From contig NZ_JAFUSK010000030.1 in NCBI RefSeq assembly GCF_017471675.1, positions 1 through 56,146 on the forward strand: a DNA stretch of 56,146 nucleotides, read 5' to 3'. This DNA comes from Pseudobutyrivibrio sp. (lineage in GTDB: Bacteria; Bacillota; Clostridia; Lachnospirales; Lachnospiraceae). This document shows, in pieces, positions 14,192-40,866 of the stretch. Position 1 is the stretch's first letter; each line of letters begins with the position of its first letter. The position numbers and the translations under genes are program-made. The notes beneath the pieces are model-generated. The model was not told where the DNA came from, ran no database searches, and worked only from the letters and a program-made list of their open reading frames with translations.

Positions 14192-14204
14192 TATTTGCAA
14201 TAAG

Positions 14205-14244
14205 GACGAAGGCGTCTGCTACAAGGTAGCAGGCGCCTTTTTTG
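14205..14244 (+). promoter_or_regulatory. Leader 1: hexaloop hairpin overlapping a terminator (putative ANTAR target)
   Basis: GAC-GAAGGC-GTC (14205-14216) can form a small hairpin with a six-base loop. Its second half belongs to the 5' arm of a strong terminator, GGCGTCTGCTA (14211-14221) paired with TAGCAGGCGCC (14227-14237), then a T-tract. The two folds exclude each other. Loop position 4 is G as in ANTAR targets, but position 1 is G rather than A. The same design stands ahead of four other nitrogen genes in the window. Confidence 0.75.
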
Positions 14245-14312
14245 TTTATAGCATTTGTTGCGCAAAAAGCTATATGCATACTTAAAAGGAATTAAAGAGA
14301 GGAGACTTTGAT

Positions 14313-15122
14313 ATGAGAAAAATGATACTTTCATTATTATTGGTGTTTGCGACTACAGCTACAATGGCAGGATGTGGTAGTAATTCTAAACAGTCTAGTG
14401 CTGAAAAAAGCACAGAAGCTACCACTACTACTGCTAGTTCAGAAAAGAAATGGGTAATTGTAACAGATACTGCATTCAAGCCATTTGAATATACAGACGA
14501 TAATGGTGACTTTGTGGGGATTGATGTTGATATTCTTGATGCAATAGCTGCAAATCAAGGATTTGAATACGAGCTAAAGCCCCTAGGTTGGGATGCTTCA
14601 ATTGCAGCATGCCAGGCAGGTCAGGCAGATGGAATGATTGCAGGTGCATCTATTACAGACGAAAGAAAAGCATCTGGATGGGTTTTCTCTGATGGATACT
14701 ATGATGCAAATCAGTCTATGGCTGTAGAGGCATCATCTGATATTACAGGATTTGAGGATTTAAATGGACAGTCAGTTGCAGTTAAGACAGGTACAATGAG
14801 TGCTACTTACGCAGAGAGCCTTTCAAGTGAGTACGGTTTCACTGTTACATACTTTGAGGATTCTCCTACGATGTATCAGGCAGTTGTAGGTGGTCAGGTT
14901 GCTGCTTGCTTCGATGATACTCCAATTATGGCTTCAAATATTAAAGATACTGGTATTTCAATGAAGATTGTTGAGGGTACTGGTAATGAACCTGCTGAAT
15001 ATGGATTTGCGATATTCAACACAGACAACCAAGAGCTTATTGATATGTTTAATGCAGGTCTTGCAAATATCAAGGCAAACGGTACATATGATGAAATTAT
15101 TGCAAAGTACTTAGGCGAATAG
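14313..15122 (+). CDS. Polar amino-acid ABC transporter, substrate-binding lipoprotein
   Basis: A 269-residue extracytoplasmic solute receptor of the family 3 (His/Gln/Arg-type) group. The lipoprotein signal ends in MAGCGSN, with lipidated Cys21, followed by a Ser/Thr/Glu linker. The binding domain starts with KWVIVTDTAFKPFEYTDDNG and contains GFEYELKPLGWD, VKTGTMSATYAES and a late YGFAIFNTDNQEL. The cargo cannot be told from sequence; glutamine or a general polar amino acid is likely from context. Permease and ATPase genes follow. A hairpin after this gene may favour receptor over membrane parts. Confidence 0.93.
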   Translation: MRKMILSLLLVFATTATMAGCGSNSKQSSAEKSTEATTTTASSEKKWVIVTDTAFKPFEYTDDNGDFVGIDVDILDAIAANQGFEYELKPLGWDASIAACQAGQADGMIAGASITDERKASGWVFSDGYYDANQSMAVEASSDITGFEDLNGQSVAVKTGTMSATYAESLSSEYGFTVTYFEDSPTMYQAVVGGQVAACFDDTPIMASNIKDTGISMKIVEGTGNEPAEYGFAIFNTDNQELIDMFNAGLANIKANGTYDEIIAKYLGE

Positions 15123-15136
15123 CATTAGATTAAAAG

Positions 15137-15165
15137 GGGCAGGGGGTTCCTGCCCTAATTGTTTT
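15137..15165 (+). terminator. Intra-operon hairpin after the receptor gene (partial attenuator)
   Basis: GGGCAGG (15137-15143) pairs with CCTGCCC (15149-15155) around a five-base loop, followed by an imperfect T-rich tail. It lies between the receptor and permease genes. The usual meaning is partial termination or 3'-end protection, giving more receptor than permease. Confidence 0.7.
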
Positions 15166-15194
15166 ATAAAACCAGTTAGAAAGGGTTATTTTTT

Positions 15195-15866
15195 ATGTTA
15201 ACTATTATTACAGTTTATGGGTCGATGCTTCTTGTTGCTATGGGAAGAACATTGCTCCTTGCATTACTAGGCTTATTTTTTGCCTGCATCATTGGTATGC
15301 TTTTCGGAATTATGGGTGTAGTAAAAAACAGAGTAAGTAATGTAATTTCACAGATTTTCGTTGATGTAATCAGAGGGGTTCCGATGATTGTATTAGCCTT
15401 CTTTGTGTATTTTGGTATTCCTTATTTATTTAATACCATCATTGGAGGTTTCTCTGTTAGTATGACAGCACTTCAGGCAGGTACAATCTGTCTTGCATTG
15501 AACTGTGGTGCTTATATGGCAGAAATTATTAGAGCAGGTATTCAGTCTGTTGATAAAGGTCAGACGGAAGCTGCCAGATCTCTTGGTCTTACATACGGAC
15601 AGTCTATGCGCAAGGTCGTATTACCTCAGGCTATCAAGACAATGATTCCTACATTCATCAACCAGTTTATTATTACACTCAAGGATACATCCATTCTTTC
15701 AGTTATCGGTTTTCCAGAACTTGTTAACACAGCAAAGAATGTACAGGCAAACACATTCATGTCATTCCAGACATGGGCTATTGTTGGTGTGATGTATCTT
15801 ATAGTTATTACTATCCTTTCACGTAGTGCAAAGGTTCTTGAAAGGGGATTAAACGTTGGCAGATAA
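15195..15866 (+). CDS. Polar amino-acid ABC transporter permease
   Basis: A 223-residue inner-membrane permease of the HisM/GlnP type with about five hydrophobic spans. The cytoplasmic coupling motif is visible as [20 protein letters not shown] near residues 115-135, followed by a conserved [19 protein letters not shown]. These permeases work as homodimers or paired with a sister subunit; only one is encoded here, so a homodimer is likely. The ATPase start overlaps its end. Confidence 0.94.
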
Positions 15867-16596
15867 AGAAATCAAAATCAGTGTTAAAAATCTTAAGAAG
15901 TGTTATGGCGACTTGGAGGTATTAAAGGATATTTCTACAGATGTCACTAAGGGAGAGGTTGTTTGTGTAATCGGTCCTTCAGGTTCTGGAAAGTCCACAT
16001 TTTTACGTTGCCTAAACAGACTTGAAACTGTTACAGCAGGCTCAATTGTTGTTGATGGAAATGATATTACAGACAAGCACATTAATATCAATAAAGTTAG
16101 AGAAAACATTGGAATGGTGTTCCAGCATTTCAATCTTTTCAACAACTTAAACATACTTGATAACCTTACACTTGCACCAGTTCAGCTTAAGAAGTGTTCT
16201 AAGGCTGAGGCAGAGGAGCGTGCTAAAAAGATGCTTGCAAAGGTTGGGCTTGAGGACAAGGCAACTAGCTTCCCTAGTCAACTTTCTGGTGGACAGAAGC
16301 AGCGTGTTGCTATCGCTCGCGCACTTTGCATGGAGCCAGATATCATGCTTTTTGATGAGCCAACATCAGCTCTTGATCCAGAAATGGTAGGAGAAGTTCT
16401 TCAAGTAATGAAGGATTTGGCTGCAGATGGCATGACTATGGTTATTGTTACTCACGAAATGGGATTTGCCAGAGAAGTGGCAGATAGAGTTATTTTTATG
16501 GATGGTGGTTACATTGTCGAGGAAGGCACTCCTTCAGAGGTATTGCTTAATCCAAAGGAACCTAGAACCATCGATTTCTTAAATAAGGTGTTATAA
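15856..16596 (+). CDS. Polar amino-acid ABC transporter ATP-binding protein
   Basis: A 246-residue GlnQ/HisP-type ATPase. Walker A is GPSGSGKST near residue 38, Q-loop [10 protein letters not shown] near 85, signature [15 protein letters not shown] near 138 and Walker [15 protein letters not shown] near 160. The H-loop reads VTHEMGFA. The start is TTG at 15856 with AAGGGGA upstream at usable spacing, and it overlaps the permease stop. It powers the receptor/permease pair encoded just upstream. Confidence 0.95.
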
Positions 16597-16605
16597 GAGG
16601 GGCAT

Positions 16606-17193
16606 ATGAAAAACATAATTACAATCAGCCGTCAGTTTGGTGCTGGCGGAGGTACAATAGGTAAGGAGGTAGCTGAGCGTTTAGGTTACTATTACTGCGA
16701 TAAGGATATGATTGTTAGAGCGTCAATCGAATCTGGCAATCTTAGTCCAGAAGAGGTTCACTACTTTGATGAGAAGGTACCAAGAGAGTTTGGTTTGGGA
16801 CAGAGTCTGTTTGATTTCTATAACAAGCCACTTGATGAGCGTCTTTACAATGCTCAAAAAGAAGCAATACGAAAAGTCGCCGAAAAAGGCAACTGCGTAA
16901 TTGTTGGTAGAAATGCCAATATTATTCTTAAGGAATTTGATCGCTCACTTCATGTATTTGTTTCTGGTACAGAGCATTTTCGCGTTAAACGAATGATGGA
17001 AAGAATGCCAAGCACTACAGAAGAAAAGGTTCGAGAGGAACTTCACAATGTGGACAAGGCAAGAAACAAATACTGTAAGCATTATACAGGAACAGATTTC
17101 GGAAATGCTGTATTTTATGATTTGTGTTTAAAGAGCTCTACACTTGGGCTTGAAAAATGTGTTGATATTATTTGCAATACAGCGAAGATTTAA
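16606..17193 (+). CDS. Cytidylate kinase-like family protein
   Basis: A 195-residue P-loop-type protein beginning MKNIITISRQFGAGGGTIGK, the pattern of the cytidylate-kinase-like family common in Clostridia. Further on it has GNCVIVGRNANIIL and a basic RVKRMMERM lid-like segment. True CMP kinases are a different subgroup, so a nucleoside monophosphate substrate is uncertain. It begins nine bases after the ATPase gene and is probably the last gene of the transporter operon. Why it is linked to amino-acid uptake is not clear. Confidence 0.85.
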   Translation: MKNIITISRQFGAGGGTIGKEVAERLGYYYCDKDMIVRASIESGNLSPEEVHYFDEKVPREFGLGQSLFDFYNKPLDERLYNAQKEAIRKVAEKGNCVIVGRNANIILKEFDRSLHVFVSGTEHFRVKRMMERMPSTTEEKVREELHNVDKARNKYCKHYTGTDFGNAVFYDLCLKSSTLGLEKCVDIICNTAKI

Positions 17194-17213
17194 AATTTGA
17201 TATATTTCTAATG

Positions 17214-17251
17214 GACAAAGGCGTCTGCTAATAAATAGCAGGCGCCTTTTG
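17214..17251 (+). promoter_or_regulatory. Leader 2: hexaloop hairpin overlapping a terminator (putative ANTAR target)
   Basis: GAC-AAAGGC-GTC (17214-17225) gives a six-base loop with A at position 1 and G at position 4, the ANTAR-target pattern. Its 3' half is part of the terminator GGCGTCTGCTA (17220-17230) with TAGCAGGCGCC (17236-17246) and four T. The stem is identical to that of leader 1. No convincing separate promoter is visible here, so it may act both as terminator of the upstream operon and as a read-through control for the hydrolase/NAD synthetase genes. Confidence 0.72.
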
Positions 17252-17271
17252 CAGACTTAGGAGGAAATTTA

Positions 17272-17973
17272 ATGAGACCGGTTATAGGATTAATACCTTT
17301 ATTTGATGATGAGAAGGAAAGCTATTGGATGCTTCCAGGATATATGAAAGCTATAGAGAAGTCAGGGGGAGTTCCTATTATGCTTCCTTTTTCGCAGGAT
17401 GAAAATGAGTTGATAATTGCATATGGATTATGTGATGGAATCCTATTTACAGGAGGACATGATGTATCGCCTAAAATTTATGGTCAGGGTCCAACAGATA
17501 AATGTGGAATAACTTGCGAAACAAGAGATGCAATGGAAGGATTTTTACTAGATTTGTGTATCTCAGATAACAAGCCAATGCTTGGAATTTGTAGAGGCAT
17601 CCAATTTATAAATGCATATTTGGGCGGTACGCTATATCAGGATTTGCCCACAGAGTATAAAAGCAATATAGAACATCATATGACGCCGCCTTATGATAAT
17701 TCGATTCACAATGTTGATGTAAAGGATAAGAGTAAATTGGCGAATATTATTGGCGCAGGTATACATAGCGTCAATAGCTATCATCACCAAGCAATTAAAG
17801 AGTTGGCAGATGGACTTGAAGCTATGGCGATATCAGAGGATGGACTGGTGGAATCTATAGCAATCAAAAATCAGAAATTCGCAATTGCGGTACAGTGGCA
17901 TCCAGAATTTTCATATGGCAGTAGTGAAGACAGTAAGAAGATTATGAAGGCTTTTGTAGATTCATGTATGTAA
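17272..17973 (+). CDS. Gamma-glutamyl-gamma-aminobutyrate hydrolase family protein (class I amidotransferase-like)
   Basis: A 233-residue peptidase C26/PuuD-like hydrolase. The nucleophile Cys is in MLGICRGIQFINAYLGG near residue 107, and the His-Glu pair is in VQWHPEFSYG near 212. An ILFTGGHDVSPKIYG loop near 62 is typical. PuuD-type enzymes split gamma-glutamyl compounds such as gamma-glutamyl-GABA in putrescine use, releasing glutamate. With polyamine genes in the next operon this fits nitrogen salvage, but substrate is inferred. It starts 22 bases after the leader terminator with an AGGAGG site. Confidence 0.92.
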   Translation: MRPVIGLIPLFDDEKESYWMLPGYMKAIEKSGGVPIMLPFSQDENELIIAYGLCDGILFTGGHDVSPKIYGQGPTDKCGITCETRDAMEGFLLDLCISDNKPMLGICRGIQFINAYLGGTLYQDLPTEYKSNIEHHMTPPYDNSIHNVDVKDKSKLANIIGAGIHSVNSYHHQAIKELADGLEAMAISEDGLVESIAIKNQKFAIAVQWHPEFSYGSSEDSKKIMKAFVDSCM

Positions 17974-17984
17974 GAGAACAATTT

Positions 17985-18506
17985 ATGAATAAAACAGCAA
18001 AAATCCCTAAAATTGGGATGAGAATAATTAAATCAGCAGTAGCAGTTTTTATATGCTTTTTGATTGATGATTTGAGGAATGAGGCTGGTATAGTTTTTTA
18101 CTCACAGCTTTCAGCTTTATGGTGCATGCAGGCTAGTAAGAAAAACACTATAAAAAATGCAAAGCAAAGGTTCATAGGCACTATTATTGGTACTATTTTT
18201 GGCTTTATATATATAGTTGTCAAAATAAATCTGCTTAGGAATTTTAATCTTGACTATGATTACATAGCGGCAGCAGTAATTTCAGTAATGATTGTTGTAA
18301 TAATATATACAACAGTTCTGGTGAATAAAAAACAAGCATCATATTTCTCTTGTGTGGTTTTTTTAAGCATTGCTGTAAACCATATAGGAGATATGCACCC
18401 ATATCTATTTGTTTGGAACAGGTTTCTTGATACTGCAATTGGAATATTAGTTGGAGTAGGTGTGAATTTGTTGATTAATATAAAAGGAAGGGAACAATAT
18501 GACTGA
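17985..18506 (+). CDS. Small FUSC/aromatic-acid-exporter-like membrane protein
   Basis: About 173 residues with four hydrophobic spans, read from ATG 17985; an upstream ATG at 17964 in the same frame lies before the previous stop and is less likely. Elements such as RIIKSAVAVFICFLIDD, QRFIGTIIGTIFGF and NRFLDTAIGILVGVGVN resemble the membrane half of FUSC/ArAE exporters of Firmicutes, which are longer. This short version has only the membrane part. Substrate is unknown. It overlaps nadE by eight bases, so it belongs to the same operon. Confidence 0.75.
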   Translation: MNKTAKIPKIGMRIIKSAVAVFICFLIDDLRNEAGIVFYSQLSALWCMQASKKNTIKNAKQRFIGTIIGTIFGFIYIVVKINLLRNFNLDYDYIAAAVISVMIVVIIYTTVLVNKKQASYFSCVVFLSIAVNHIGDMHPYLFVWNRFLDTAIGILVGVGVNLLINIKGREQYD

Positions 18507-20418
18507 TGGATTTATTAAAGTTGCAAGCGCAACATGTGATATAAAAGTAGCGGATACAAAATATAATGCAGATGCGATTGTTGAAAAGATAAAGGATGCT
18601 ACAGATGGAGGTGTAAAAATTATCTGTTTTCCTGAACTTTGTATTACTGGTTATACCTGTGGGGATTTATTTTTGCAGGATACTTTACTTAAAGGAGCTA
18701 TAGAGGCTGTTGAATATATAGCTTATGAAACAAAGAATATAGATATTGTAGCTATTGTTGGTTTGCCTTGTGTTATCAATCAAAAATTGTATAACATTGC
18801 AGTTGTAATTAATCATGGCAAGGTGCTTGGTGGAACAGCAAAACAGAATATACCTAATTATGGTGAATTCTATGAAATGCGGCATTTTACGCCTGCAAGT
18901 TTTGATTTTAATGAAGAGGTAACCTTTGGTAGAGCTAAATCGGCATGTATATGTTGTAATCAAATTTATTCTATGGAAGAAATGCCGAATCTGAAATTTG
19001 GTATAGAAATCTGTGAAGACCTTTGGGTTGCCGATAGTCCATCTATAAGGTTAGCGGAAGGTGGTGCTACAATTGTTTTTAATTTATCAGCTAGTGATGA
19101 AGTTATTGGAAAAAGAGATTATAGAAGAAATATCGTAAATGCGAAATCCGGCAGTTTGATATGTGGATATGTATATGCGGATGCCGGTGTGGGAGAATCT
19201 ACTCAGGATATGGTGTTTGCGGGTCACAATATTATCTCTGAGAATGGAACCATATTAGCTGAATCAAAACTATTTGAAAATGAGGTGATTATTGCAGATA
19301 TAGATGTTGATAAGCTTGCCTACGAAAGAAGGAGAATGAATACTTTTAAGCCTTGCGAAACTATATCAGAAATCAAGTTTTCTTTGACACACAAAACTAC
19401 AGTGCTAGAACACGCACCGGCAAAATATCCATTTGTACCAGCTACGCAAAATAATCTAAACAATAGATGTAAAGACATTCTTACAATGCAAGCTGTTGGG
19501 CTGGCGACAAGAATAAAGCATATTGGATGCAAGAAGGTAGTGTTGGGGTTATCCGGAGGTCTTGATTCAACCCTGGCATTAATAGTAACTATACATGCAT
19601 TTGATAGATTAGACATGGATAAAAGGGGAATTCATGCAATTACAATGCCAGCTTTCGGAACAACTGATAGAACATACAACAATGCTTGCACATTGGCCAA
19701 AAGCTATGGTGTTACTTTAAAAGAAATCGATATAAAGGAAAGCGTTAAATGTCATTTTAAAGATATAGGTCAATCAGAAGAAAATAAAGACGTTACATAC
19801 GAAAATGCGCAGGCTAGAGAACGTACTCAAGTGCTTATGGATAGAGCGAACATGCTAAATGGCATTGTTATTGGAACAGGTGATTTGTCGGAGCTAGCTT
19901 TGGGGTGGGCCACATATAATGGAGATCACATGTCTATGTATGCAGTTAATGCTTCTATACCAAAGACGCTTGTAAGATGGCTTGTGGATTATGAGGCAAG
20001 GAATTCTGAAATCCAATTGAGAACTATTTTGTATGATATTCTTGATACACCGGTGAGTCCTGAACTTTTACCTCCAGACAAAGATGGAACGATAGAGCAA
20101 AAGACAGAGGATTTGGTTGGTCCATACGAGTTACATGACTTTTTCCTGTATTATATGTTTAGATTTGGCTTTTCCCCGGCTAAAATATATCGTTTGGCGA
20201 CACTTAGCTTTAGTATGGATTATGAAAGATCAGAAATATTGAATTGGATGAAGGTGTTTTACCGTAGATTTTTCTTGCAGCAGTTTAAGCGCAGCTGTAT
20301 GCCTGATGCACCAAAGGTTGGAACTGTAACCTTGTCCCCTAGAGGTGATTTTAGAATGCCTAGCGATGCAGTTTATAATTTGTGGCTTCATGAACTAGAG
20401 AATCTTTCTGATGATTAG
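18499..20418 (+). CDS. nadE: Glutamine-dependent NAD+ synthetase
   Basis: A 639-residue two-domain enzyme making NAD+ from deamido-NAD+ with glutamine as the nitrogen donor. The N-terminal nitrilase domain shows the Glu (FPELCITGYTCGDLF near 40), Lys and Cys (FGIEICEDLWV near 175) triad. The C-terminal synthetase has the ATP pyrophosphatase loop GLSGGLDSTLAL near 351 and GTGDLSELALGW near 461. Length suits the long glutamine-using class. It shares a nitrogen-type leader with the hydrolase upstream, consistent with glutamine demand. Confidence 0.97.
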   Translation: MTDGFIKVASATCDIKVADTKYNADAIVEKIKDATDGGVKIICFPELCITGYTCGDLFLQDTLLKGAIEAVEYIAYETKNIDIVAIVGLPCVINQKLYNIAVVINHGKVLGGTAKQNIPNYGEFYEMRHFTPASFDFNEEVTFGRAKSACICCNQIYSMEEMPNLKFGIEICEDLWVADSPSIRLAEGGATIVFNLSASDEVIGKRDYRRNIVNAKSGSLICGYVYADAGVGESTQDMVFAGHNIISENGTILAESKLFENEVIIADIDVDKLAYERRRMNTFKPCETISEIKFSLTHKTTVLEHAPAKYPFVPATQNNLNNRCKDILTMQAVGLATRIKHIGCKKVVLGLSGGLDSTLALIVTIHAFDRLDMDKRGIHAITMPAFGTTDRTYNNACTLAKSYGVTLKEIDIKESVKCHFKDIGQSEENKDVTYENAQARERTQVLMDRANMLNGIVIGTGDLSELALGWATYNGDHMSMYAVNASIPKTLVRWLVDYEARNSEIQLRTILYDILDTPVSPELLPPDKDGTIEQKTEDLVGPYELHDFFLYYMFRFGFSPAKIYRLATLSFSMDYERSEILNWMKVFYRRFFLQQFKRSCMPDAPKVGTVTLSPRGDFRMPSDAVYNLWLHELENLSDD

Positions 20419-20429
20419 GCAGGTGGATT

Positions 20430-21179
20430 ATGAAAAAACTAGAAACCAATGATTGGATAGTACTTAACAATATTATATACAAAATATATACCACAGATAA
20501 TTTGGATGAAATGAGAAGCAATTTATTTGATGAGTTAAAAATGATTATAGACTTTGATAGTGCAGATTTTTACCTGGCATCAAAGGAGCCGGGACATATG
20601 CTATGTAATCCTATCACCTACAATTGCGATTTGGATTTGTCTGAAATGTACGAAGACATAGATTACTCCAGGGGTATAGTTGCAAGTGGTAAAATGCTAA
20701 TTTACAGAGAGACTGATATAATTTCTGATGAATCACGTATAGAATCTGAATATTATAAGAAGGTTTACAAGCCTAATAATTGGCATTTTGCGCTACAAAT
20801 GGTACTTGCTAGACAAAAAAAGTTTTTGGGGGCAGTTACATTTTATCGAACCATTGGAAAAGAAAATTTTCACTATGATGATATTTTTGTATTGGATTTA
20901 TTGAAGGATCATCTTGCTTATAGACTCGAACAATTCGAAAAACATAAAGAAATTGGAATTGAGAAGTATACAGTAAGTGAAGCTAAAGAAAAATTTGAAC
21001 TTACTAGACGTGAGGGAGAAATTCTGAGTTTTTTGATGGAAGGAAAGGATAATGTGCATATTTGTGAGGAATTAGTAATAACTGAGAACACGTTAAAAAA
21101 GCATATACTAAATCTCTACAGAAAACTAGGAATTAATAGCCGCACGCAGTTATTTAAAATGATTAAGGAGTTTGATTAA
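20430..21179 (+). CDS. LuxR-type transcription regulator with a GAF-like N-terminal domain
   Basis: A 249-residue regulator. Residues 1 to about 170 resemble a GAF or PAS-like ligand domain and have no phosphorylation receiver. The C-terminus is a LuxR helix-turn-helix: FELTRREGEILSFLMEGK, then ITENTLKKHILNLYRKLG. It is 11 bases after nadE and stands before the PII/polyamine operon, so that operon or its own are candidate targets. Similar regulators beside amine-use genes are common in Lachnospiraceae as I recall. The ligand is unknown. Confidence 0.88.
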   Translation: MKKLETNDWIVLNNIIYKIYTTDNLDEMRSNLFDELKMIIDFDSADFYLASKEPGHMLCNPITYNCDLDLSEMYEDIDYSRGIVASGKMLIYRETDIISDESRIESEYYKKVYKPNNWHFALQMVLARQKKFLGAVTFYRTIGKENFHYDDIFVLDLLKDHLAYRLEQFEKHKEIGIEKYTVSEAKEKFELTRREGEILSFLMEGKDNVHICEELVITENTLKKHILNLYRKLGINSRTQLFKMIKEFD

Positions 21180-21218
21180 TTACTTATTTTTAAGTAGATA
21201 AATGGTAAAAAGTGTTAA

Positions 21219-21247
21219 TTGAAGAGGGCACTTTATTGGTTTATAGT
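21219..21247 (+). promoter_or_regulatory. Promoter of the PII/polyamine operon
   Basis: TTGAAG at 21219-21224, 17-base spacer, TATAGT at 21242-21247. The start point would be near 21254, about 17 bases before the hexaloop hairpin. Confidence 0.7.
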
Positions 21248-21270
21248 TTAGAAAACGTAAACAAATGAAG

Positions 21271-21313
21271 AGCAAAGGGGCTTATCCAATGTGGATAAGC
21301 CCCTATTTCTTTT
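21271..21313 (+). promoter_or_regulatory. Leader 3: hexaloop hairpin overlapping a terminator (putative ANTAR target)
   Basis: AGC-AAAGGG-GCT (21271-21282) forms a six-base loop with A1 and G4. The bases from G4 on are also the 5' arm of the terminator GGGGCTTATCC (21277-21287) paired with GGATAAGCCCC (21293-21303) and a T-rich tail. The stem differs from the other leaders while the loop rule is kept, which argues for selection on the loop rather than recent copying. Confidence 0.75.
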
Positions 21314-21331
21314 GTAGAAGGAGGAAAGAGC

Positions 21332-21688
21332 ATGAAGGAATTAGAAATTGTTATAAGACCAGAGAAGCTAGAAGACATAAAAAATATATTAGATGAAATA
21401 AATTGTGGTGGAATGACCTTATCCACCGTAATGGGGTGTGGGACACAAAAGGGTATAGCAACTGAGGAAGGGTCTGTAAATGAATTCAAGGGATTCAAAA
21501 CCACCATCAATTTACTACCAAAGGTTAAGGTAGAGGTTGTAGTTGAAGATACTGAGATGGAAAGAATTATTGAAAAGGTTAGAGAAACCTGTGCCACGGA
21601 TCATGTGGGAGATGGAAAAATTTTTATTAAAGATGTTGTTGATGTCGTACGTATCCGTACTGGCGAAAGGGGCTTGAAGGCATTGTAG
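21332..21688 (+). CDS. glnB: PII family nitrogen regulatory protein with altered T-loop
   Basis: A 118-residue PII protein. The core is conserved: MKELEIVIRPEKLEDIK at the start, LLPKVKVEVVV after the T-loop, and the late VGDGKIFIKDV and IRIRTGERG that bind ATP/ADP and 2-oxoglutarate. The T-loop is about six residues longer than in E. coli GlnB and the uridylylation Tyr51 position is Phe (NEFKG), with Thr in place of Arg38. Control by covalent modification is therefore unlikely, and effector binding should dominate. It heads a polyamine ABC operon instead of sitting next to amtB, which suggests it may gate this transporter. Confidence 0.93.
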   Translation: MKELEIVIRPEKLEDIKNILDEINCGGMTLSTVMGCGTQKGIATEEGSVNEFKGFKTTINLLPKVKVEVVVEDTEMERIIEKVRETCATDHVGDGKIFIKDVVDVVRIRTGERGLKAL

Positions 21689-21701
21689 TTGAGGTGATTG
21701 T

Positions 21702-22811: not shown

Positions 22812-22825
22812 AGGAGGCAGATAAC

Positions 22826-23698: not shown

Positions 23699-23713
23699 AA
23701 GGAGAAAAAAACT

Positions 23714-24505: not shown

Positions 24506-24520
24506 AAGGAGGAAATGCTT

Positions 24521-25573: not shown

Positions 25574-25587
25574 TTGGGAGAATAAAA

Positions 25588-26742: not shown

Positions 26743-26763
26743 AAGCAGGAAGGAGTGAAACAT

Positions 26764-28258: not shown

Positions 28259-28272
28259 TAGGAGGCATAAGT

Positions 28273-29850: not shown

Positions 29851-29862
29851 AGGAGGAACGTC

Positions 29863-30201
29863 ATGAATAGTATAAATGATAGAAGTAGAGACATAGGCGA
29901 GTTTAAGTCTATGCCAGATGATGATATGTTGATTTGTAGATGTGAGGAAATCACTAAGGGGGAAATCAGAAAGGCTGTACATGATGGAATGTGGACACTG
30001 ACTGAAATTAGAAGATATCTTAGAACTGGTATGGGTTTATGTCAGGGGCAGACCTGCTCAAAGCTTGTTAAGGGAATTGTGGCAAGGGAGCTTGGAATTT
30101 CACCAGCAGAGTTAGAACCTGCTACAAGTAGAGTTCCTATGAGACCGATAGAAATGAAGGTATTCGCCAATGAAGCAGAAAAGTTAAAGGAGGCGAATTA
30201 G
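29863..30201 (+). CDS. BFD-like [2Fe-2S] protein
   Basis: A 112-residue protein with a bacterioferritin-associated-ferredoxin-like cluster: MLICRCEEITKGEIRKAV and later GLCQGQTCSKLV, four Cys in a CxC-x(n)-CxxxxC layout. In HcnB/OoxA enzymes this domain is commonly the C-terminal end of the large subunit; here it is a separate gene, so the subunit has been split, or the anaerobic form was never fused. It lies between the large and catalytic flavin subunits. Confidence 0.84.
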   Translation: MNSINDRSRDIGEFKSMPDDDMLICRCEEITKGEIRKAVHDGMWTLTEIRRYLRTGMGLCQGQTCSKLVKGIVARELGISPAELEPATSRVPMRPIEMKVFANEAEKLKEAN

Positions 30202-30202
30202 T

Positions 30203-31333: not shown

Positions 31334-31342
31334 AGGTATGCT

Positions 31343-32503: not shown

Positions 32504-32574
32504 GGATAGCGAAGAATAAATTAAAAATGTTCAAAGAGAACTTTTAACTATTATTTAAAAGATTTAACAATAAT

Positions 32575-32612
32575 AAAAGTGCTTGCTATAATATGGCAGG
32601 CACTTTTTAGAG
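32575..32612 (+). terminator. Terminator of the amine operon
   Basis: AAAAGTGCTTGC (32575-32586) pairs with GCAGGCACTTTT (32596-32607) through a nine-base loop. The rest of the roughly 300-base gap before gltB holds the next promoter and leader, and I see no gene in it. Confidence 0.88.
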
Positions 32613-32671
32613 AGCATGCCCGTGAATAGAACGGATAAAGGATACTTTAACACATTAAACTAAAAAAGTGC

Positions 32672-32700
32672 TTGCAATCTTAGCCAAATAGTTGTATAGT
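32672..32700 (+). promoter_or_regulatory. Promoter of the gltBD operon
   Basis: TTGCAA at 32672-32677, 17-base spacer, TATAGT at 32695-32700. The start point would be near 32707, just before the hexaloop hairpin. Confidence 0.8.
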
Positions 32701-32709
32701 TTTGCACAA

Positions 32710-32772
32710 GACAAAGGCGTCTAAGGAAATTCCCTTTAGGGGGAGTTTCTTTAGGCGCCTTTATTTTTATAC
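32710..32772 (+). promoter_or_regulatory. Leader 4: hexaloop hairpin overlapping a terminator (putative ANTAR target)
   Basis: GAC-AAAGGC-GTC (32710-32721) has the A1/G4 six-base loop. The terminator is a long stem from AGGCGTCTAAGGAAA paired, with two G-U or T-G wobbles, to TTTCTTTAGGCGCCT (ending at 32760), then a T-rich tract. The interior differs from leaders 1 and 2, but the hexaloop and its overlap with the 5' arm are the same. Confidence 0.75.
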
Positions 32773-32808
32773 ATATAATGAAACTACGATGTGGAAGGAG
32801 TAGCGGAC

Positions 32809-35800
32809 ATGGACAATCAAAAGAAAGGTTTGTATGACCCTAGTTTTGAGCATGACAATTGTGGTATAGGGGCTGTTGTGTCTATCAAAGGAATCAAGAC
32901 TCATCAGACAGTTTCAGATGCCTTAAAGATTGTTGAGAACTTAGAACATAGAGCTGGCAAGGATGCATCAGGTGAAACTGGTGATGGTGTAGGAATTCTG
33001 CTTCAGATATCACACAAGTTTTTCAAAAAGACATGCAGTGAGCTTAAGATTGAAATAGGCGACGAGCGTGAATACGGTGTGGGAATGTTCTTCTTTCCTA
33101 ATGACGAGCTTAAAAGAAAACAGGCAATGAAGATGTTTGAAATCATTGTTGAAAAGGAAGGCATGGAGTTCTTAGGCTGGAGAGATGTTCCAACAAGGCC
33201 TGAAATCCTAGGAAAGCTTGCAGTGGATTGTATGCCATTTATTGCCCAGGCATTTATCAAAAAGCCTAAGGATGTAGAAAAGGGCCTTCAATTTGATAGA
33301 AAGCTGTATGTTGCAAGACGTGTGTTTGAGCAGACAGCAGAGGATACCTATGTTGCATCCCTTTCAAGTAGAACTATTGTATACAAGGGAATGTTCCTTG
33401 TGGATCAGCTAAGACTGTTCTTTGAGGATTTGTTGGATGAGGATTACGAATCTGCAATAGCAACAGTGCATTCTCGTTTCTCTACTAACACTAATCCATC
33501 ATGGGAGCGTGCTCATCCAAACAGATTTATCGTGCACAATGGTGAGATAAATACCATAAAGGGTAATGCAGACAAGATGTTATCCCGTGAGGAGACAATG
33601 GTTTCCCAGGTGCTAGAGGATGAGATGACAAAGATTACGCCTGTATGCAATCAGGCAGGCTCTGACTCAGCAATGCTTGATAACGCACTGGAGTTTCTTG
33701 TAATGAATGGCATGCCACTTCCTCTTGCGGTAATGATTACTATTCCAGAGCCATGGGTAAAGAACAAGGCTATGGAACAGGCAAGAAGAGATTTCTACCA
33801 ATACTATTCAACAATGATGGAGCCATGGGATGGACCAGCATCAATTCTCTTCTCAGATGGTGATATCATGGGTGCGGTGCTTGATAGAAACGGTCTTAGA
33901 CCATCCCGCTACTATATTACAAACGACGATTATCTTATTCTTTCATCAGAGGTAGGTGTACTTCCTATTGAGGAAAACAGAATAAAGCTTAAGGATAGAT
34001 TAAAGCCAGGTAAGATGCTTCTTGTTGACACTGTAGAAGGACGTTTGATAGATGATAATGAACTGAAGCTTACCTATGCAAATAGACAGCCTTATGGCCA
34101 GTGGCTAGATGCTAATCTTGTTCACTTAGGTGATATCAAGATTCCTAATGAGCCAGTGCCAAAGTATTCTGCTACAGAAAGAGACAGATTGCAAAAGGCC
34201 TTTGGTTATTCCTATGAGGAGATAAAGGATTCAATTCTTCCAATGGCACTTAACGGTGTGGAAAACACCGGAGCCATGGGTATTGATGTTCCACTTGCAG
34301 TACTTTCAAAGAATCATCAGCCACTGTTTAATTACTTCAAGCAGCTGTTTGCCCAGGTAACCAATCCGCCTATTGATTCTATCAGAGAGGAAATTGTTAC
34401 AGCTACAACCATCTATCTTGGAACAGCAGGAAACGTCCTTGAAGAGAAGGAAGAAAACTGTAACATGCTGCAGATTAATAATCCTATCCTTACAACAACA
34501 GATTTGATGAAGATTAAATCCATGAAGGTTCCAGGACTTAAGACTGCCACTGTGCCTATTGTATATTACAAGAATACATCCCTAGAGAAGGCTATTGAGC
34601 ATCTTTTTGTGGAAGTGGATAAGGTAAATCATGAAGGAGCTAATATCATCATCCTTTCAGATAGAGGTGTGGACGAAAACCATGTAGCTATCCCTTCACT
34701 TCTTGCAGTTGCAGCAGTACAGCATCATCTGGTACAGACAAAGAAGCGTACATCACTTTCACTTATCCTAGAATCAGGTGAGCCAAGAGAGGTACATCAT
34801 TTTGCAACCTTGCTTGGATACGGCGCATCTGCAATCAACCCATATCTTGCACAGGAGACTATTGCGGAGCTTATTGAAAAGGGACAGCTAAAAAAGGATG
34901 TACATGCGGCAATTGATTCCTATAATGAAGCTGTAATTAGCGGAATTATAAAGATTGCTTCTAAGATGGGCATTTCTACAGTGCAGTCTTACCAGGGTGC
35001 TAAGATTTTTGAGGCTATTGGAATTAGCAAGGATGTTATAGACAGATATTTCACTGGCACCATTTCAAGAATTGGTGGAATAACTCTAGAGGATATTGAG
35101 TCTGATGTGGAAATGCAGCATTCTAAGGCATTTGATCCACTAGGCCTTGATGTGGATGAGACTCTTGATTCAAGAGGTCAGCACAAGATGCGCTCTGGTG
35201 CAGAGGAGCATCTATATAATCCTGCTACAATTCATCTTTTACAGCTTGCTACTAGGACGGGAGATTACAATACATTTAAGGAGTACACCTCACTTGTAAA
35301 TGAAGAGGAAAATGTTAGAAACCTAAGAGGACTTATAGATTTTAATTATCCTAAGAAGGGTATTAGCATTGATCAGGTAGAATCTGTTGATTCTATTGTA
35401 AAGCGATTTAAGACTGGTGCTATGAGCTACGGTTCTATTTCAAAGGAAGCTCATGAGACTATGGCTATTGCTATGAATCAGCTTCACGGCAAGTCTAACT
35501 CCGGTGAAGGCGGAGAAGAGGATGAGCGTTACGAAATAGGTCCTGATGGACTTAACCGTTGTTCAGCTATTAAGCAGGTGGCATCAGGACGATTTGGTGT
35601 TACCAGCAAATACTTAGTATCTGCCAAGGAAATCCAAATAAAGATGGCTCAAGGCGCAAAGCCTGGTGAAGGAGGCCATCTGCCAGGTAAGAAGGTGTAT
35701 CCATGGATTGCAAAGACACGTCTTTCTACTCCTGGTGTAGCTCTTATTTCCCCACCACCTCATCATGATATTTATTCAATCGAGGATTTGGCAGAGCTTA

Positions 35801-37347
35801 TCTATGATTTAAAGAATGCTAATAAGGATGCACGTATTTCTGTAAAACTTGTATCAGAAGCAGGTGTTGGCACAATTGCATCTGGTGTTGCTAAGGCTGG
35901 TGCTCAGGTTATCCTTATTTCAGGATATGATGGCGGTACAGGTGCAGCACCAAAATCATCAATTCACAATGCAGGCTTGCCATGGGAACTTGGTCTTGCA
36001 GAGGCTCATCAGACACTTATTATGAATGGCCTTAGAAACAAGGTAGTAATTGAGACTGATGGTAAGCTCATGTCAGGACGAGATGTTGCAATAGCATGTG
36101 CACTTGGTGCAGAGGAATTTGGATTTGCTACAGCACCACTTGTAACTATGGGCTGCGTTATGATGCGTGTGTGCAACCTGGATACATGTCCTGTAGGTGT
36201 TGCCACACAAAACCCTGAGCTTAGAAAGCGCTTTAAAGGAAAGCCAGAATATGTAGTTAACTTTATGAGGTTTATTGCAGAGGAGCTTCGTGAATACATG
36301 GCTTCCCTTGGCTGCAAAACAGTGGATGAGCTATGTGGAAGAACAGATTTACTAAAGCTAAAGGAGACTACAAAGAACAGTCCATTTGAAAAGGTGGATT
36401 TGACAGCTGTACTTAGCAATCCATCAGGTGGAGAGAAGATTGAGTACGCTAAGAAGAATGTATATAACTTTGAGCTTGAAAAGACTGTAGATGAAAAGGT
36501 ACTTCTAAAGGAGCTTAAGAGTGCAATTGCAGCAGGAAAGCCAAAGGAAGTGACAGTCGATATCGTAAATACGGATAGAAGCCTTGGAACACTTCTTGGA
36601 GCAGAGCTTACAAGAAGGTATGGTGAAAGCTTAGCTGAGGATACCTATAAGGTAAATTGCCATGGTGCTGGTGGTCAGTCTTTTGGTGCATTTATTCCAA
36701 AGGGACTTACACTTAAGCTGGCTGGTGATTCTAACGATTATTTTGGTAAAGGCCTATCAGGGGGAAAGCTAATAGTATATCCACCAGAGGGTGCTACCTA
36801 CAAGGAGGATGAGAACATCATCATTGGAAATGTAGCACTGTATGGCGCTACCAGCGGCAAGGCATTTATCAACGGTGTTGCTGGTGAGCGTTTTGCTGTA
36901 AGAAACTCTGGCGCCACAGCCGTAGTAGAGGGTGTCGGTGACCATGGCTGTGAATACATGACAGGTGGCCGCGTGGTTGTACTGGGTGAAACAGGCAAGA
37001 ACTTTGCAGCAGGTATGAGCGGTGGAATTGCCTATGTGTTAGATGAGGATGCTACCCTATACAAGAAGCTGAATAAATCTATGGTTAGTCTTGAGACAGT
37101 AACAGATAAGTATGATGTTATGGAGCTTAAAGATATTATCGGCGAGCATGTGAAGGCTACAGGCTCTAAGAAGGGTAAGGAAATCTATGATAACTTTAGC
37201 GATTATCTGCCTAAGTTTAAGAAGATTGTGCCATTTGATTACAAGAAGATGTTAGAGGCCATGGTAAAGATGGAGGCTAAGGGGCTTTCAGCAGAGCAGG
37301 CTCAGATAGAAGCCTTTAATTTGTTAATGAATGGTCAAGGTGCTTAA
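32809..37347 (+). CDS. gltB: Glutamate synthase (NADPH) large subunit
   Basis: GltB makes glutamate from 2-oxoglutarate and glutamine with GltD. The start is ATG 32809, eight bases from GGAAGGAG; GTG 32791 is too early. The 1512-residue protein has a class II amidotransferase domain, with the nucleophile in [11 protein letters not shown] (Cys near 18, so a short propeptide is removed). Then come a central domain, an FMN barrel with [20 protein letters not shown] and [13 protein letters not shown], [3Fe-4S] cysteines in [15 protein letters not shown], and a C-terminal beta-helix with repeats like [17 protein letters not shown]. All parts are intact. Confidence 0.98.
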   Translation: [1512 protein letters not shown]

Positions 37348-37359
37348 GGAGGATTAGTC

Positions 37360-38856
37360 ATGGGAAAATCTACAGGATTTTTAGAATATGAGCGTGTAGA
37401 GGAAGTGGCTTCACATCCTCTGGAGCGTATTAAGAATTTTAATGAATTTCACACACCATTATCTACTGAGGAGCGTCAGCGTCAGGCTGCCAGATGTATG
37501 GATTGCGGTGTGCCATTTTGCCAGTCAGGAATGACTATTAAGGGGATGACATCAGGCTGTCCTCTTAACAATCTGATTCCTGAGTGGAACGATTTAGTTT
37601 ATCAGGGAAACTTGGATATAGCTTATAAGAGACTACACAAAACCAGCAATTTCCCAGAGTTTACCTGCAGAGTGTGTCCAGGGTTATGCGAAAAGGCCTG
37701 TACCTGTAGCTTAAACGGTGAAGCTGTCACCACAAAGGCTAACGAGATGGCAATAATAGAGTATGCCTATGACCATGGCCTTGCGGATGCCAATCCACCA
37801 AAGCAGCGCACAGGAAAAAGAGTTGCTGTGGTAGGCTCAGGACCATCAGGTCTTGCTGTTGCAGACCAGCTTAATAGAAGAGGTCACAGTGTAACAGTTT
37901 ATGAAAGAAACGATAAGGTAGGTGGATTACTTCGCTACGGTATTCCAAACATGAAGCTTGAAAAGCAGATTATTGATAGAAAGATTCATGTGATGGAACA
38001 GGAGGGCATTAGCTTTATCGTAAATGCGAATATTGGTGATAACGTAAAGTCAGCAGAGCTTACATCAAAGTATGATGCAGTGGTACTTTGCTGCGGTTCA
38101 TCTAATCCTAGGGATATTGATGCAATTGGTCGAAAGGAAGCTAAGGGAATATACTTTGCTGTGGATTTTCTTGCCTCTACTACAAAGTGTCTGTGGAACA
38201 ACAATATGCAGCTTGTGGACGGTCAGTATATATCTGCAAAGGATAAGGATGTGGTTATCATTGGCGGTGGCGATACAGGAAACGATTGTGTTGGTACAGC
38301 TATTCGTCATGGCTGCAAATCTGTGACTCAGCTTGAAATGATGCCAAAGGCACCAGATCAGCGAGCAGAGAATAATCCTTGGCCACAGTGGCCTCTTGTT
38401 TGCAAGACTGATTACGGTCAGGAGGAGGCAATTGCAAAATTTGGCCACGACCCACGTATCTATACCACTACTGTAAAGGAATTTAAGACAGACAAATCAG
38501 GTAATCTTAAATCTGTTGTTCTTGTATCACTGGAGTCAAAGGTGGATAAAAAGACAGGCCGCAAGATGATGGTTCCTGTAGAGGGAACTGAAAAAGAAGT
38601 AAAGTGCCAGCTATGCCTGATTGCAGCAGGATTTTTAGGCTCTGAAAAATATGTGGTAGATGCATTTAAGGTGGGATTAGATGCAAGGACTAACGTGGCA
38701 TCTGTAGGTAAAGACAGCTTTGCCACAAATGTAGATAAGGTATTTACAGCCGGCGATATGCACACCGGTCAATCCCTGGTTGTTAAGGCAATTAGAAGCG
38801 GAAGAGACTGTGCAAGACAGGTGGATGAATATCTTATGGGGTATACAAACCTCTAG
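37360..38856 (+). CDS. gltD: Glutamate synthase (NADPH) small subunit
   Basis: A 498-residue GltD, which moves electrons from NADPH via FAD and iron-sulphur clusters to GltB. Cysteine clusters CMDCGVPFCQ and CRVCPGLCEKACTC near 45-115, FAD site VAVVGSGPSGLAVADQLNRR near 150, NAD(P) site VVIIGGGDTGNDCVGTA near 298 and a late VFTAGDMHTGQSLVV. It starts 12 bases after gltB, with AGGAGG. Confidence 0.98.
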   Translation: MGKSTGFLEYERVEEVASHPLERIKNFNEFHTPLSTEERQRQAARCMDCGVPFCQSGMTIKGMTSGCPLNNLIPEWNDLVYQGNLDIAYKRLHKTSNFPEFTCRVCPGLCEKACTCSLNGEAVTTKANEMAIIEYAYDHGLADANPPKQRTGKRVAVVGSGPSGLAVADQLNRRGHSVTVYERNDKVGGLLRYGIPNMKLEKQIIDRKIHVMEQEGISFIVNANIGDNVKSAELTSKYDAVVLCCGSSNPRDIDAIGRKEAKGIYFAVDFLASTTKCLWNNNMQLVDGQYISAKDKDVVIIGGGDTGNDCVGTAIRHGCKSVTQLEMMPKAPDQRAENNPWPQWPLVCKTDYGQEEAIAKFGHDPRIYTTTVKEFKTDKSGNLKSVVLVSLESKVDKKTGRKMMVPVEGTEKEVKCQLCLIAAGFLGSEKYVVDAFKVGLDARTNVASVGKDSFATNVDKVFTAGDMHTGQSLVVKAIRSGRDCARQVDEYLMGYTNL

Positions 38857-38913
38857 AATTTAATACCGTAATTTATTATTATGATATTAAAATAACCCTT
38901 AGGAGGGAAGGAA

Positions 38914-40161
38914 ATGTCACATTTATCAATAGATGATATATTAGAGTTCGTTGAAGAAAACGACGTAAAGTTTATACGTCTTGCCTTTTGCGACCTTTAT
39001 GGAAATCAAAAAAATATTTCTATCATGCCATCAGAGCTTAGAAGCGCATTTGAGGATGGAATTAATTTCGACCCATTTTTAATCCTGGGCTTTGAGGATG
39101 GGATGGGGAAGGATTTATTCTTAAAGCCTGATGCAGATACGCTTCATGTGTTGCCATGGCGCCCATCATCTGGCCGTGTAATCAGGTTTTACTGTGATGT
39201 GGTTTATGCAGATGGTACACCATTTTCAATGGACTACAGGCAGTTTTTAAAGGACACTCTTAAGCAGTGTGAAGACATGGGCTTTACTACCAAGATGGGA
39301 CTGCGTTCAGAATTTTATCTCTTTAAAACAGATGATAATGGTATTCCAACAGATGAGCCATTTGATAATGGCGGATATTTAGATGTTGCACCTAGTGACA
39401 GAGGTGAGAATATCAGGCGAGAAATCTGTCTTAGCTTAGAGGAAATGGGAATTTCACCTCAGTCATCACATCATGAAAGAGGTCCTGGTCAAAACGAAAT
39501 AGATTTTCAATCTGCAGATGCACTGACTACTGCAGATAACTTCGTGACCTACAAAAACGTAGTAGAAAATATTGCAGCAAGAAATGGAGCTTATGCATGC
39601 TTTGAGCCAAAGCCAATAGATGATGCACCAGGTAATGGCTTGCATATTCTCATGTCTACTCATAAGGGAGAGAAGAACCTTATCAGCGATGATAAGGAAT
39701 TTTCTGATAGCTTTATGGCAGGTATTATCAATAGAATGCGCGACATTACAATCTTCTTAAACTGCCGTAGGGATTCCTATGACAGATTAGGTTATCTGGA
39801 GGCTCCTAAATATATTACCTGGTCTATGCAGAATAATTCCAGATTATTTAGAGTGCCAGAGATTAATGGTAGAAGAAAGTATTTTATACTTCGCTCACCA
39901 GATTCATGTCTTAATCCTTATCTTGCTACAGCAATTATTTTGCAGGCAGGAATTGCAGGAGTGAAGGGAAAGGAGCAGCTTCCACCAGCTCTAGAGTTTA
40001 AATCAAGGCTTCTTACTGAGGATGAATACTCTAAGCTTGATACTCTTCCAGCAACTATTGAGGAGGCTATTGAATGTGCTTCAAACAGCAGCTTTTTGAA
40101 GGAATCAACCTTTGCAAAAATCGCAGAAAATTATATTGAGACAATCAAAATGAGCATTTAG
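38914..40161 (+). CDS. Glutamine-synthetase-like protein lacking key metal ligands
   Basis: A 415-residue type I GS-fold protein. The beta-grasp loop Asp (FCDLYGNQKN), HHERGPGQNEIDF (two Glu ligands), GNGLHI (His ligand), SYDRL and YLEAP are kept. But Salmonella/E. coli Glu129, a ligand of the ATP-side metal n2, is Arg (GLRSEFYLF). Glu357, also n2, is Ile (FILRSPDS). Arg339 is Asn (NNSRLFRVP). Three active-site changes in an otherwise aligned frame suggest a weak or inactive enzyme. It lies 57 bases after gltD and 17 before the ANTAR regulator, so I infer a sensory role, perhaps reporting glutamine to that regulator. A true but divergent ligase cannot be excluded. Confidence 0.82.
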   Translation: MSHLSIDDILEFVEENDVKFIRLAFCDLYGNQKNISIMPSELRSAFEDGINFDPFLILGFEDGMGKDLFLKPDADTLHVLPWRPSSGRVIRFYCDVVYADGTPFSMDYRQFLKDTLKQCEDMGFTTKMGLRSEFYLFKTDDNGIPTDEPFDNGGYLDVAPSDRGENIRREICLSLEEMGISPQSSHHERGPGQNEIDFQSADALTTADNFVTYKNVVENIAARNGAYACFEPKPIDDAPGNGLHILMSTHKGEKNLISDDKEFSDSFMAGIINRMRDITIFLNCRRDSYDRLGYLEAPKYITWSMQNNSRLFRVPEINGRRKYFILRSPDSCLNPYLATAIILQAGIAGVKGKEQLPPALEFKSRLLTEDEYSKLDTLPATIEEAIECASNSSFLKESTFAKIAENYIETIKMSI

Positions 40162-40178
40162 CTTTTAAGGAGTGGACT

Positions 40179-40745
40179 ATGGAAAGAGCGTTAATTGTCT
40201 GCGATAACGAAAAGGCTAGCGCATTCTACAAATCCTATCTGAAGGAAAATGGGTATATTGATATGCTTTTAGTGGAAAGTATACCAGCAGCAAAGCGTGC
40301 TATCACTGACTATGATTTTGATATATGCTTTGTGAATCTGCCTCTTGGTGGCTCTAATTCCATCGAACAGGTTATAGATATAGCTGAAAAAAATGTGTGC
40401 CAGATACTGCTGTTTATTAAGGCAGATTTGTATGATGAGATTACAGATAAGGTGGCAGACTACGGCATTATCACTGTATCTAAGCCTATTAGCAAGCAGC
40501 TGCTTTGGCAGGCACTGCGGCATGCACTTGCGGCGCAAAGACGTATTGGAATGGCTCACAAGGAAAGTGCAAAGCTAGAGAAGAAGCTGGAGGAGCTAAA
40601 GACCATTTCAAGGGCCAAGTTACTTCTCATTATCAACGAGGATTTAACTGAGGAAGAGGCTCATAAGAAGATAGAGAAGAATGCCATGGACTTAAGAATA
40701 TCTAGATATCAAATGGCAAAGGATATTATAAAAAAATATGGATAA
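40179..40745 (+). CDS. ANTAR-domain response regulator (RNA antiterminator), with pseudo-receiver
   Basis: A 188-residue protein. Residues 1-115 are a receiver-like domain, but the expected phosphorylation Asp is Asn53 (CFVNLPLGG), so phosphorylation is unlikely. A coiled coil runs to about 140, then the ANTAR RNA-binding domain: SRAKLLLIINEDLTEEEAHK and NAMDLRISRYQMAKDIIKKY. ANTAR proteins bind small hairpins with A1/G4 hexaloops and block terminators. Such hairpins precede five nitrogen genes or operons here, including the gltB operon that encodes this protein. A related glnA-linked ANTAR regulator (NitR) has been described for clostridia, as I recall. How activity is controlled is not visible. 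Confidence 0.93.
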   Translation: MERALIVCDNEKASAFYKSYLKENGYIDMLLVESIPAAKRAITDYDFDICFVNLPLGGSNSIEQVIDIAEKNVCQILLFIKADLYDEITDKVADYGIITVSKPISKQLLWQALRHALAAQRRIGMAHKESAKLEKKLEELKTISRAKLLLIINEDLTEEEAHKKIEKNAMDLRISRYQMAKDIIKKYG

Positions 40746-40760
40746 TTTGAAAAATAGTTA

Positions 40761-40789
40761 TTGACAAATTATTGTCGAACGAATATTAT
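40761..40789 (+). promoter_or_regulatory. Promoter of the asparagine synthetase gene
   Basis: TTGACA at 40761-40766, 17-base spacer, TATTAT at 40784-40789. The start point is near 40796, about 20 bases before the hexaloop hairpin. Confidence 0.87.
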
Positions 40790-40815
40790 ACTAAACAAAT
40801 AAAAATCAATGGAAC

Positions 40816-40866
40816 GACAATGGCGTCGTGATTAGTGTTTATGCACCAGTCACGACGCCTTTTTGT
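40816..40866 (+). promoter_or_regulatory. Leader 5: hexaloop hairpin overlapping a terminator (putative ANTAR target)
   Basis: ACGAC-AATGGC-GTCGT (40814-40829) is the strongest small hairpin of the set, with five base pairs and an A1/G4 six-base loop. Its second half is within the terminator 5' arm GGCGTCGTGATT (40822-40833), which pairs with AGTCACGACGCC (40848-40859), then TTTTTG. The design repeats that of the other four leaders. Confidence 0.8.

Follow-up and report, generated by a model that had tools for sequence, protein, structure and literature searches.

Can a single RNA hairpin, set on a transcription terminator, be enough for an ANTAR protein to govern a whole set of nitrogen genes? 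The question is raised by a 56,146-nt contig of Pseudobutyrivibrio sp. (NZ_JAFUSK010000030.1 of assembly GCF_017471675.1; "the window" means this whole stretch), in which five leaders with a six-base loop (hexaloop) precede nitrogen genes and an ANTAR protein is encoded at 40179. In the published model of ANTAR antitermination, the protein dimer lands on a first hexaloop and then moves to a second. Dual-hexaloop leaders of eut, nas, and ami (acted on by EutV, NasR, and AmiR) were described by Ramesh et al. 2012 using a two-hairpin search (PMC3369931), and an actinobacterial survey refers to ~400 firmicute and proteobacterial ANTAR targets as dual (PMC8164766). The evidence below argues, with good though not full confidence, that each of the window leaders is a transcription attenuator controlled by the 40179 protein and that a single hexaloop suffices for it.

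All five leaders lie on the + strand, at 14205, 17214, 21271, 32710, and 40816, and in every one a 4-5-bp stem closes a six-base loop whose end, together with the 3' stem, forms the 5' arm of a strong intrinsic terminator (5/5), so that hairpin and terminator are mutually exclusive, as a preliminary description of this DNA had stated. Leader 1, upstream of ABC importer genes, has the hexaloop GGAC-GAAGGC-GTCT at 14204..14217 (loop 14208-14213), overlapped by a terminator at 14208..14240 (-25.3 kcal/mol); leader 2, upstream of a Peptidase_C26 amidotransferase gene, has GGAC-AAAGGC-GTCT at 17213..17226 (loop 17217-17222) with a terminator at 17217..17249 (-22.7 kcal/mol); and leader 3, upstream of the PII gene, has GAGC-AAAGGG-GCTT at 21270..21283 (loop 21274-21279) with a terminator at 21276..21304 (-23.2 kcal/mol). 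Leader 4, upstream of a gltB-gltD-glnA-ANTAR run, carries AGAC-AAAGGC-GTCT at 32709..32722 (loop 32713-32718) and a terminator at 32713..32762 (-36.2 kcal/mol), and leader 5, upstream of asnB, carries ACGAC-AATGGC-GTCGT at 40814..40829 (loop 40819-40824) and a terminator at 40822..40859 (-26.9 kcal/mol). Predicted terminator energies therefore run from -22.7 to -36.2 kcal/mol (z -5.5 to -8.2), while the isolated hexaloop hairpins reach just -3.1 to -4.8 kcal/mol. A strict scan (three Watson-Crick stem pairs, G4, a perfect 8-bp terminator arm with <=1 G-U, and >=5 T in a 9-base tail) returned four units on the + strand and none on the - strand, compared with a mean of 0.16 per strand and a maximum of 2 in 100 dinucleotide shuffles, and leader 2 (17214) fell out solely at the T-tail threshold. 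When the five are compared, 20/20 stem cells pair, with double-sided changes at three of the four pairs. These leaders are thus real, beyond chance, and all of the sites first described hold up, as does the count of four loops in five with both A1 and G4 (G4 is present in 5/5); with their 4-5-bp stems, they follow the rule for Ramesh-type ANTAR targets, which asks for A1, G4, and a stem of >=3 bp. A looser composite scan allowing one mismatch (15 on the + strand vs a shuffled mean of 8.5 and maximum of 13 in 20 shuffles) was uninformative alone and was dropped, and no leader, in the window or in nine other sources, matched Rfam at gathering score.

Might the hexaloop be nothing more than a by-product of ordinary terminators, arising from the A-tract (AAAGG...CCTTT) plus chance complementarity? 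AAAGG does arise where A-tracts face U-tracts, a genus terminator directly after a stop codon (L021:1508) bears GAC-AAAGGA-GTC, and composites of other loop sizes likewise exceed shuffles (84-132 vs 39-58). Such a by-product is contradicted by a non-circular test, in which AANG[GA]N loops were sought on terminator arms with the 5' stem left unconstrained: outside the genus, at 74 loci around ANTAR genes, three Watson-Crick stem pairs were found in 33% of 73 cases vs 5% when permuted (maximum 14%, 500 permutations), with the stem variants AAC/GTT, AGC/GCT, GGC/GCC, CAC/GTG, and GAC/GTC. It is contradicted further by the specificity of loop size and letters, as 51 of 147 loop-6 composites have A1 and G4 vs 12 for the next letter pair and 7/55 in shuffled sequence. 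Loop-8 composites are also numerous (132); their excess is attributed to hexaloops counted one pair further out, and with such cases excluded there are 36 terminators with loop 6 and 13 with loop 8. Alignment A4 combined 23 of 34 distant leaders (short terminators only) with three window and four genus leaders; its covariation is partly circular because the three inner stem pairs were the selection criterion for the distant rows, while the unselected fourth pair forms in 27/30 rows with nine double changes. The hexaloop stem shows covariation of its own, separate from the terminator, and conservation of terminator pairing alone, the outcome that the preliminary description had named as speaking against its proposal, was not what we found. 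Given also the co-occurrence of leaders with ANTAR genes (below), we regard the by-product explanation as extremely improbable.

The protein itself, termed NitR-like here, is encoded on the + strand at 40179..40745, directly behind glnA in the gltB-gltD-glnA-ANTAR run that stands behind leader 4. It has 188 aa, a receiver-like domain, and a C-terminal ANTAR domain (PF03861, 45.5 bits vs a cut-off of 27.3), and it is the sole ANTAR match in the genome, which upholds its original assignment. NCBIfam offers no name for it, and its closest named relative among the best 80 of 514 is a Pseudobutyrivibrio protein (L138, 98% identical). An AlphaFold model (mean pLDDT 90.2) matches Rv1626, AmiR, and EutV, the last both free (TM 0.68) and RNA-bound (6ww6, TM 0.76). 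We aligned 83 sequences (the window protein, the best 80 of 514 relatives, and two EutV-like controls), and separately, as alignment A2, the window protein with 27 of the 30 proteins behind L025-L054, omitting L032 (a fragment) and L041 and L046 (no BLAST match). At the phosphorylation site of the receiver-like domain the 83 sequences have Asn in 79, His in one, Ser in one, and Asp in two, both of these being the EutV-like controls; without the controls, 79 of 81 proteins have Asn, including the window protein (Asn53). The phosphorylatable Asp of the EutV type is thus replaced, which makes a bound partner likelier than a kinase as the means of control. EutV RNA contacts were taken from PMC8934654 and mapped by alignment, the residue offset being our own reading: the positions of Lys149, Glu160, and Met172 are conserved in 83/83, that of Arg175 is Arg in 73, those of Lys143 and Lys147 are each occupied by Lys or Arg in 79, and that of Tyr164 is His in 81 and Tyr in 2. 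AmiR is likewise a pseudo-receiver with ANTAR output (PMC3369936), and the His at the EutV Tyr164 position is a further likeness to it; unlike the AmiR-AmiC pair, the 40179 gene has no recognised AmiC-like gene beside it (its neighbours are glnA and asnB), and its candidate target operons are many.

Do such leaders recur wherever this protein does? A sixth leader, outside the window and upstream of an ammonium transporter (amt) gene, was found by the leader pattern and was also matched by model R1. The 12-base pattern gave 15 matches in the own genome vs 17 for its reversed control; three are window leaders, one is the amt leader, and the other 11 show no such leader. R1 overlooked the leader-3 site in the own genome even though that site was included in the model, and its counts are therefore lower bounds. 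At E<=0.01, R1 matched 25/25 genus genomes and 3/16 others; one ANTAR match is present in each of the 25 and an ANTAR match in 8 of the 16. By first downstream gene, in regions that were fetched because of R1 matches and are not a random sample, distinct leader sequences precede gltB (20), asnB (18), amt (8), the C26 amidotransferase (7), nadE (5), glnA (4), and the importer substrate-binding protein (3, plus one weak further match), with single cases before CTP synthase (pyrG), RidA-like, permease, Peripla_BP_6, and ornithine cyclodeaminase family genes. Of 106 composites, 22 differ in their loop letters and resemble chance matches, and another 23, whose letters fit, were unmatched to reference proteins; nine of the genes behind these were later named (with the PII gene). 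In other Clostridia (the 74 loci around ANTAR relatives), leaders stand before homologues of type III glutamine synthetase, glutamate synthase, glnA, amt, and asnB, in a list of 63 rows that includes chance matches.

Co-occurrence was assessed class-wide in 147 genomes of completeness at least 90, 81 with ANTAR (one of them below the Pfam cut-off) and 66 without. Model R2 matched 36/81 ANTAR genomes and 0/66 ANTAR-free genomes at E<=2e-6, and at looser values 41 vs 3 (1e-5), 48 vs 5 (1e-4), and 50 vs 13 (1e-3); Fisher values overstate independence because the genomes are related. Since the leaders used to build R2 came from the vicinity of ANTAR genes, the 35 best matches outside the own genome were inspected one by one: one is a training sequence, three (including that one) match a training row at >=36/40 bases, and a three-pair hexaloop is present in 31 by script and 29 by reading. 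The proposed ANTAR nitrogen regulon thus gains support in silico from the single ANTAR protein in a nitrogen cluster, the recurrent nitrogen-gene leaders, and their co-occurrence, while the proposal that the leaders are ANTAR targets has to stand without the dual-hexaloop form that defines the described ones.

How many hexaloops do the leaders have, and where do their transcripts begin? In the window, predicted sigma-70 promoters on the + strand precede leader 1 (TTGACA and TATATT, 14163..14192, 11/12 consensus matches, with a probable start ~7 nt downstream), leader 3 (TTGAAG and TATAGT, 21219..21247, 9/12, a score frequent by chance), leader 4 (TTGCAA and TATAGT, 32672..32700, 9/12), and leader 5 (TTGACA and TATTAT, 40761..40789, 11/12). 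In a set of 162 tight leaders, chance matches included, promoter-like sequence lies upstream of 106 vs 139/810 shuffled, and the distance from the -10 end to the 3-bp stem clusters at 7-14 nt (56 leaders) and 23-27 nt (30 leaders), leaving 0-7 or 16-20 nt before the stem if a start is assumed ~7 nt after the -10. Leaders among the best R2 matches show the same spacing (10-14 nt in many, along with TTGACA and TATAAT-like boxes). Judged by this promoter-like sequence, transcripts would start near the hexaloop, often few bases before it, with no room for an upstream hairpin. The competing account is that these are classical dual-hexaloop leaders whose first hairpin (P1) was overlooked, the real starts lying further upstream or P1 being degenerate. 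The starts are indeed read from promoter-like sequence alone, which 56/162 tight leaders lack at threshold, and the 18-28 nt between -10 and stem in 38/106, with 33-42 nt in seven more, would give room for a minimal P1; in 61/106, by contrast, the -10 ends <=16 nt before the stem. Our P1 search recovered a eut-operon leader of the same order, standing before a run of same-strand genes that includes an ANTAR gene and eutB, as a dual hexaloop (8-bp P1, linker 6; one case), yet in the 162 tight leaders it gave a nominal P1 in 13 vs 36/810 shuffled, none convincing: six (gltB) overlap the promoter -10, five have A-T-only stems, and two are chance-looking composites. An overlooked first hairpin is accordingly improbable in our estimate, and as far as the sequences can be read the leaders carry one hexaloop and not the tandem P1 and P2, joined by a short linker, of Ramesh-type leaders.

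How, then, would a single hexaloop act? By default, the nascent RNA would form the intrinsic terminator, which would keep expression of the nitrogen gene low. Under nitrogen limitation, presumably, an ANTAR dimer would seize the hexaloop hairpin on its exit from RNA polymerase, and since loop end and 3' stem are the terminator 5' arm, the captured hairpin would block the terminator and allow read-through. Because the hairpin by itself is weak next to so strong a terminator, the protein would have to grip it before the 3' arm has been transcribed. One hexaloop at or near the transcript 5' end would suffice, without the recruitment hairpin known from dual leaders. The protein has no phosphorylatable Asp, and its control would probably come from a bound partner or ligand, in the way that AmiC controls AmiR; glutamine synthetase and PII are our guess at candidates. 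With its gene placed after gltB-gltD-glnA and behind leader 4, in what would be one operon, the ANTAR protein would feed back positively on its own expression. A different outcome, in which hexaloop binding by the ANTAR protein leads not to antitermination but to repression or to an effect on mRNA stability or translation, has in its favor that PMC3369931 mentions targets near or over ribosome-binding sites and that these leaders join strong terminators to weak hairpins. It is opposed by the overlap of hexaloop and terminator arm in 5/5 window leaders and by stems that end 45-95 nt upstream of the start codon, away from the ribosome-binding site (the relatives were selected for this overlap, which therefore gives no independent evidence there), and we consider this outcome unlikely, if somewhat less so than a missed first hairpin.

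Several observations weigh against attenuation by the 40179 protein through one hexaloop. First, both hexaloops are needed for EutV antitermination (PMC3369931, PMC8934654), so one may not suffice for the 40179 protein either, in which the EutV contacts Arg142, Arg168, and Arg177 are Leu, Glu, and Ser. Second, the first loop base of leader 1 is G (14208), and in the predicted fold of this leader G1 pairs with C6; the position may call for a purine instead of strictly A, or the G1-C6 pair may be formed. Third, the covariation excess within the genus alone is small (74% of 65 vs 58% permuted, maximum 66%), which we ascribe to the dominance of GAC/GTC among these leaders. Fourth, 45/81 ANTAR genomes have no R2 match at 2e-6, 13/66 ANTAR-free genomes have one at E<=1e-3, six of the 35 best R2 matches are plain terminators without a hexaloop, and one ANTAR-free genome (G073) has convincing leaders, its ANTAR absence being perhaps an assembly gap.

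The genes behind the leaders were named as nitrogen genes at the outset, and domain matches confirm this, with a correction to one start. An ABC importer (SBP_bac_3, permease, ATPase) follows leader 1, and a Peptidase_C26 amidotransferase, an ArAE/FUSC-like protein, and an NAD synthetase with a carbon-nitrogen hydrolase domain follow leader 2. On the + strand lie the PII signal protein gene (21332..21688; PF00543, 7.3e-25), gltB for the glutamate synthase large subunit (32791..37347; PF00310, PF01645, PF04898, PF01493), gltD for the small subunit (37360..38856; Fer4_20 and Pyr_redox_2 domains, location after gltB), glnA for glutamine synthetase (38914..40161; PF00120, 4.3e-76), and, beyond the ANTAR gene, asnB for asparagine synthetase (40888..42474; PF00733, 2e-69). 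The asnB open reading frame (ORF) that opens with a GTG at 40828 runs across the terminator; the start is most likely the ATG at 40888. Both glnA and a type III glutamine synthetase gene at 42596-44746, after asnB, add to the nitrogen genes first listed. Neither of the two window composite scans lists a hexaloop unit between asnB and the latter gene; this gap (42475-42595) is palindromic and G+C-rich and resembles a small repeat element, whereas a hexaloop leader occupies this position in other Clostridia. An extra terminator-like hairpin at 32578-32612 (AAAAGTGCTTGC...GCAGGCACTTTTT), ahead of the gltB promoter, perhaps terminates the preceding operon, and at 6638-6878 the window holds a T-box leader (Rfam RF00230, 117.8 bits).

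Other units were seen in passing. Three single-hexaloop/terminator units stand in series ~83 nt apart at L240:503-669 (G091:C5), and two stand ~59 nt apart at L241:472-531 (G160:C7). Units near-identical to the GAC-AAAGGA-GTC terminator occur in genus loci L088, L092, and L109, and may be a coincidence or may control read-through into downstream sequence; the R1 match C1:19859, directly after a stop codon, was not counted as a leader. In another genus genome (L058), a unit with a terminator identical to that of the window gltB leader lies 356 nt before a subtilase-family ORF. The GAAGGC loop of leader 1 is found in genus leaders L055, L057, L059, and L079 as well. A Clostridiaceae contig (L157:18438-19588) holds a CRISPR direct-repeat array (Rfam RF01315).

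What is new here relative to described ANTAR antitermination is the architecture of the leaders, the mechanism being our reading of it. Nitrogen genes behind ANTAR leaders, including those for PII, ammonium transporters, and glutamate and glutamine synthases, are already known (PMC3369931), so the novelty does not lie in the gene content. Like Ramesh-type leaders, those of the window and genus have a short-stem A1/G4 hexaloop overlapping an intrinsic terminator, an ANTAR protein in the genome, and nitrogen genes downstream; unlike them, they have a single hexaloop, apparently at or near the transcript 5' end, and the loop of the clostridial leaders is mostly AAAGGC or close to it. According to PMC8934654, the smallest RNA site to which an ANTAR dimer binds is one hexaloop, and single sites are possible where transcription time is not limiting, e.g., in EutX RNA; our leaders share that minimal motif and depart from that expectation in that their single sites lie on attenuators. 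In the literature searched, which did not extend to subscription papers, we found no report of single-hexaloop attenuators. The 40179 protein may be likened, from the description in PMC4676874 alone, to NitR of Clostridium acetobutylicum, an antiterminator linked to ammonia assimilation, which that paper compares with an ANTAR protein encoded in the nitrogen cluster of C. thermocellum; its passage on NitR refers to an antisense RNA, and neither a hexaloop leader nor a regulon of several operons is described there.

Together, these observations probably mark a widespread clostridial class of ANTAR attenuators, with a single 5'-end hexaloop, no recruitment hairpin, a non-phosphorylated ANTAR protein, and a genome-wide nitrogen regulon; in some genomes its units stand in series, each having a terminator of its own. 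If true, the class contradicts the current rule of two hexaloops for ANTAR antitermination, and leaders lacking the first hexaloop would show that recruitment is non-essential or has another solution, a question that could then be tested using short RNAs and a single purified protein. Two-hairpin searches would overlook such a class, and its existence would give rumen and gut Clostridia an RNA-acting global nitrogen regulator.

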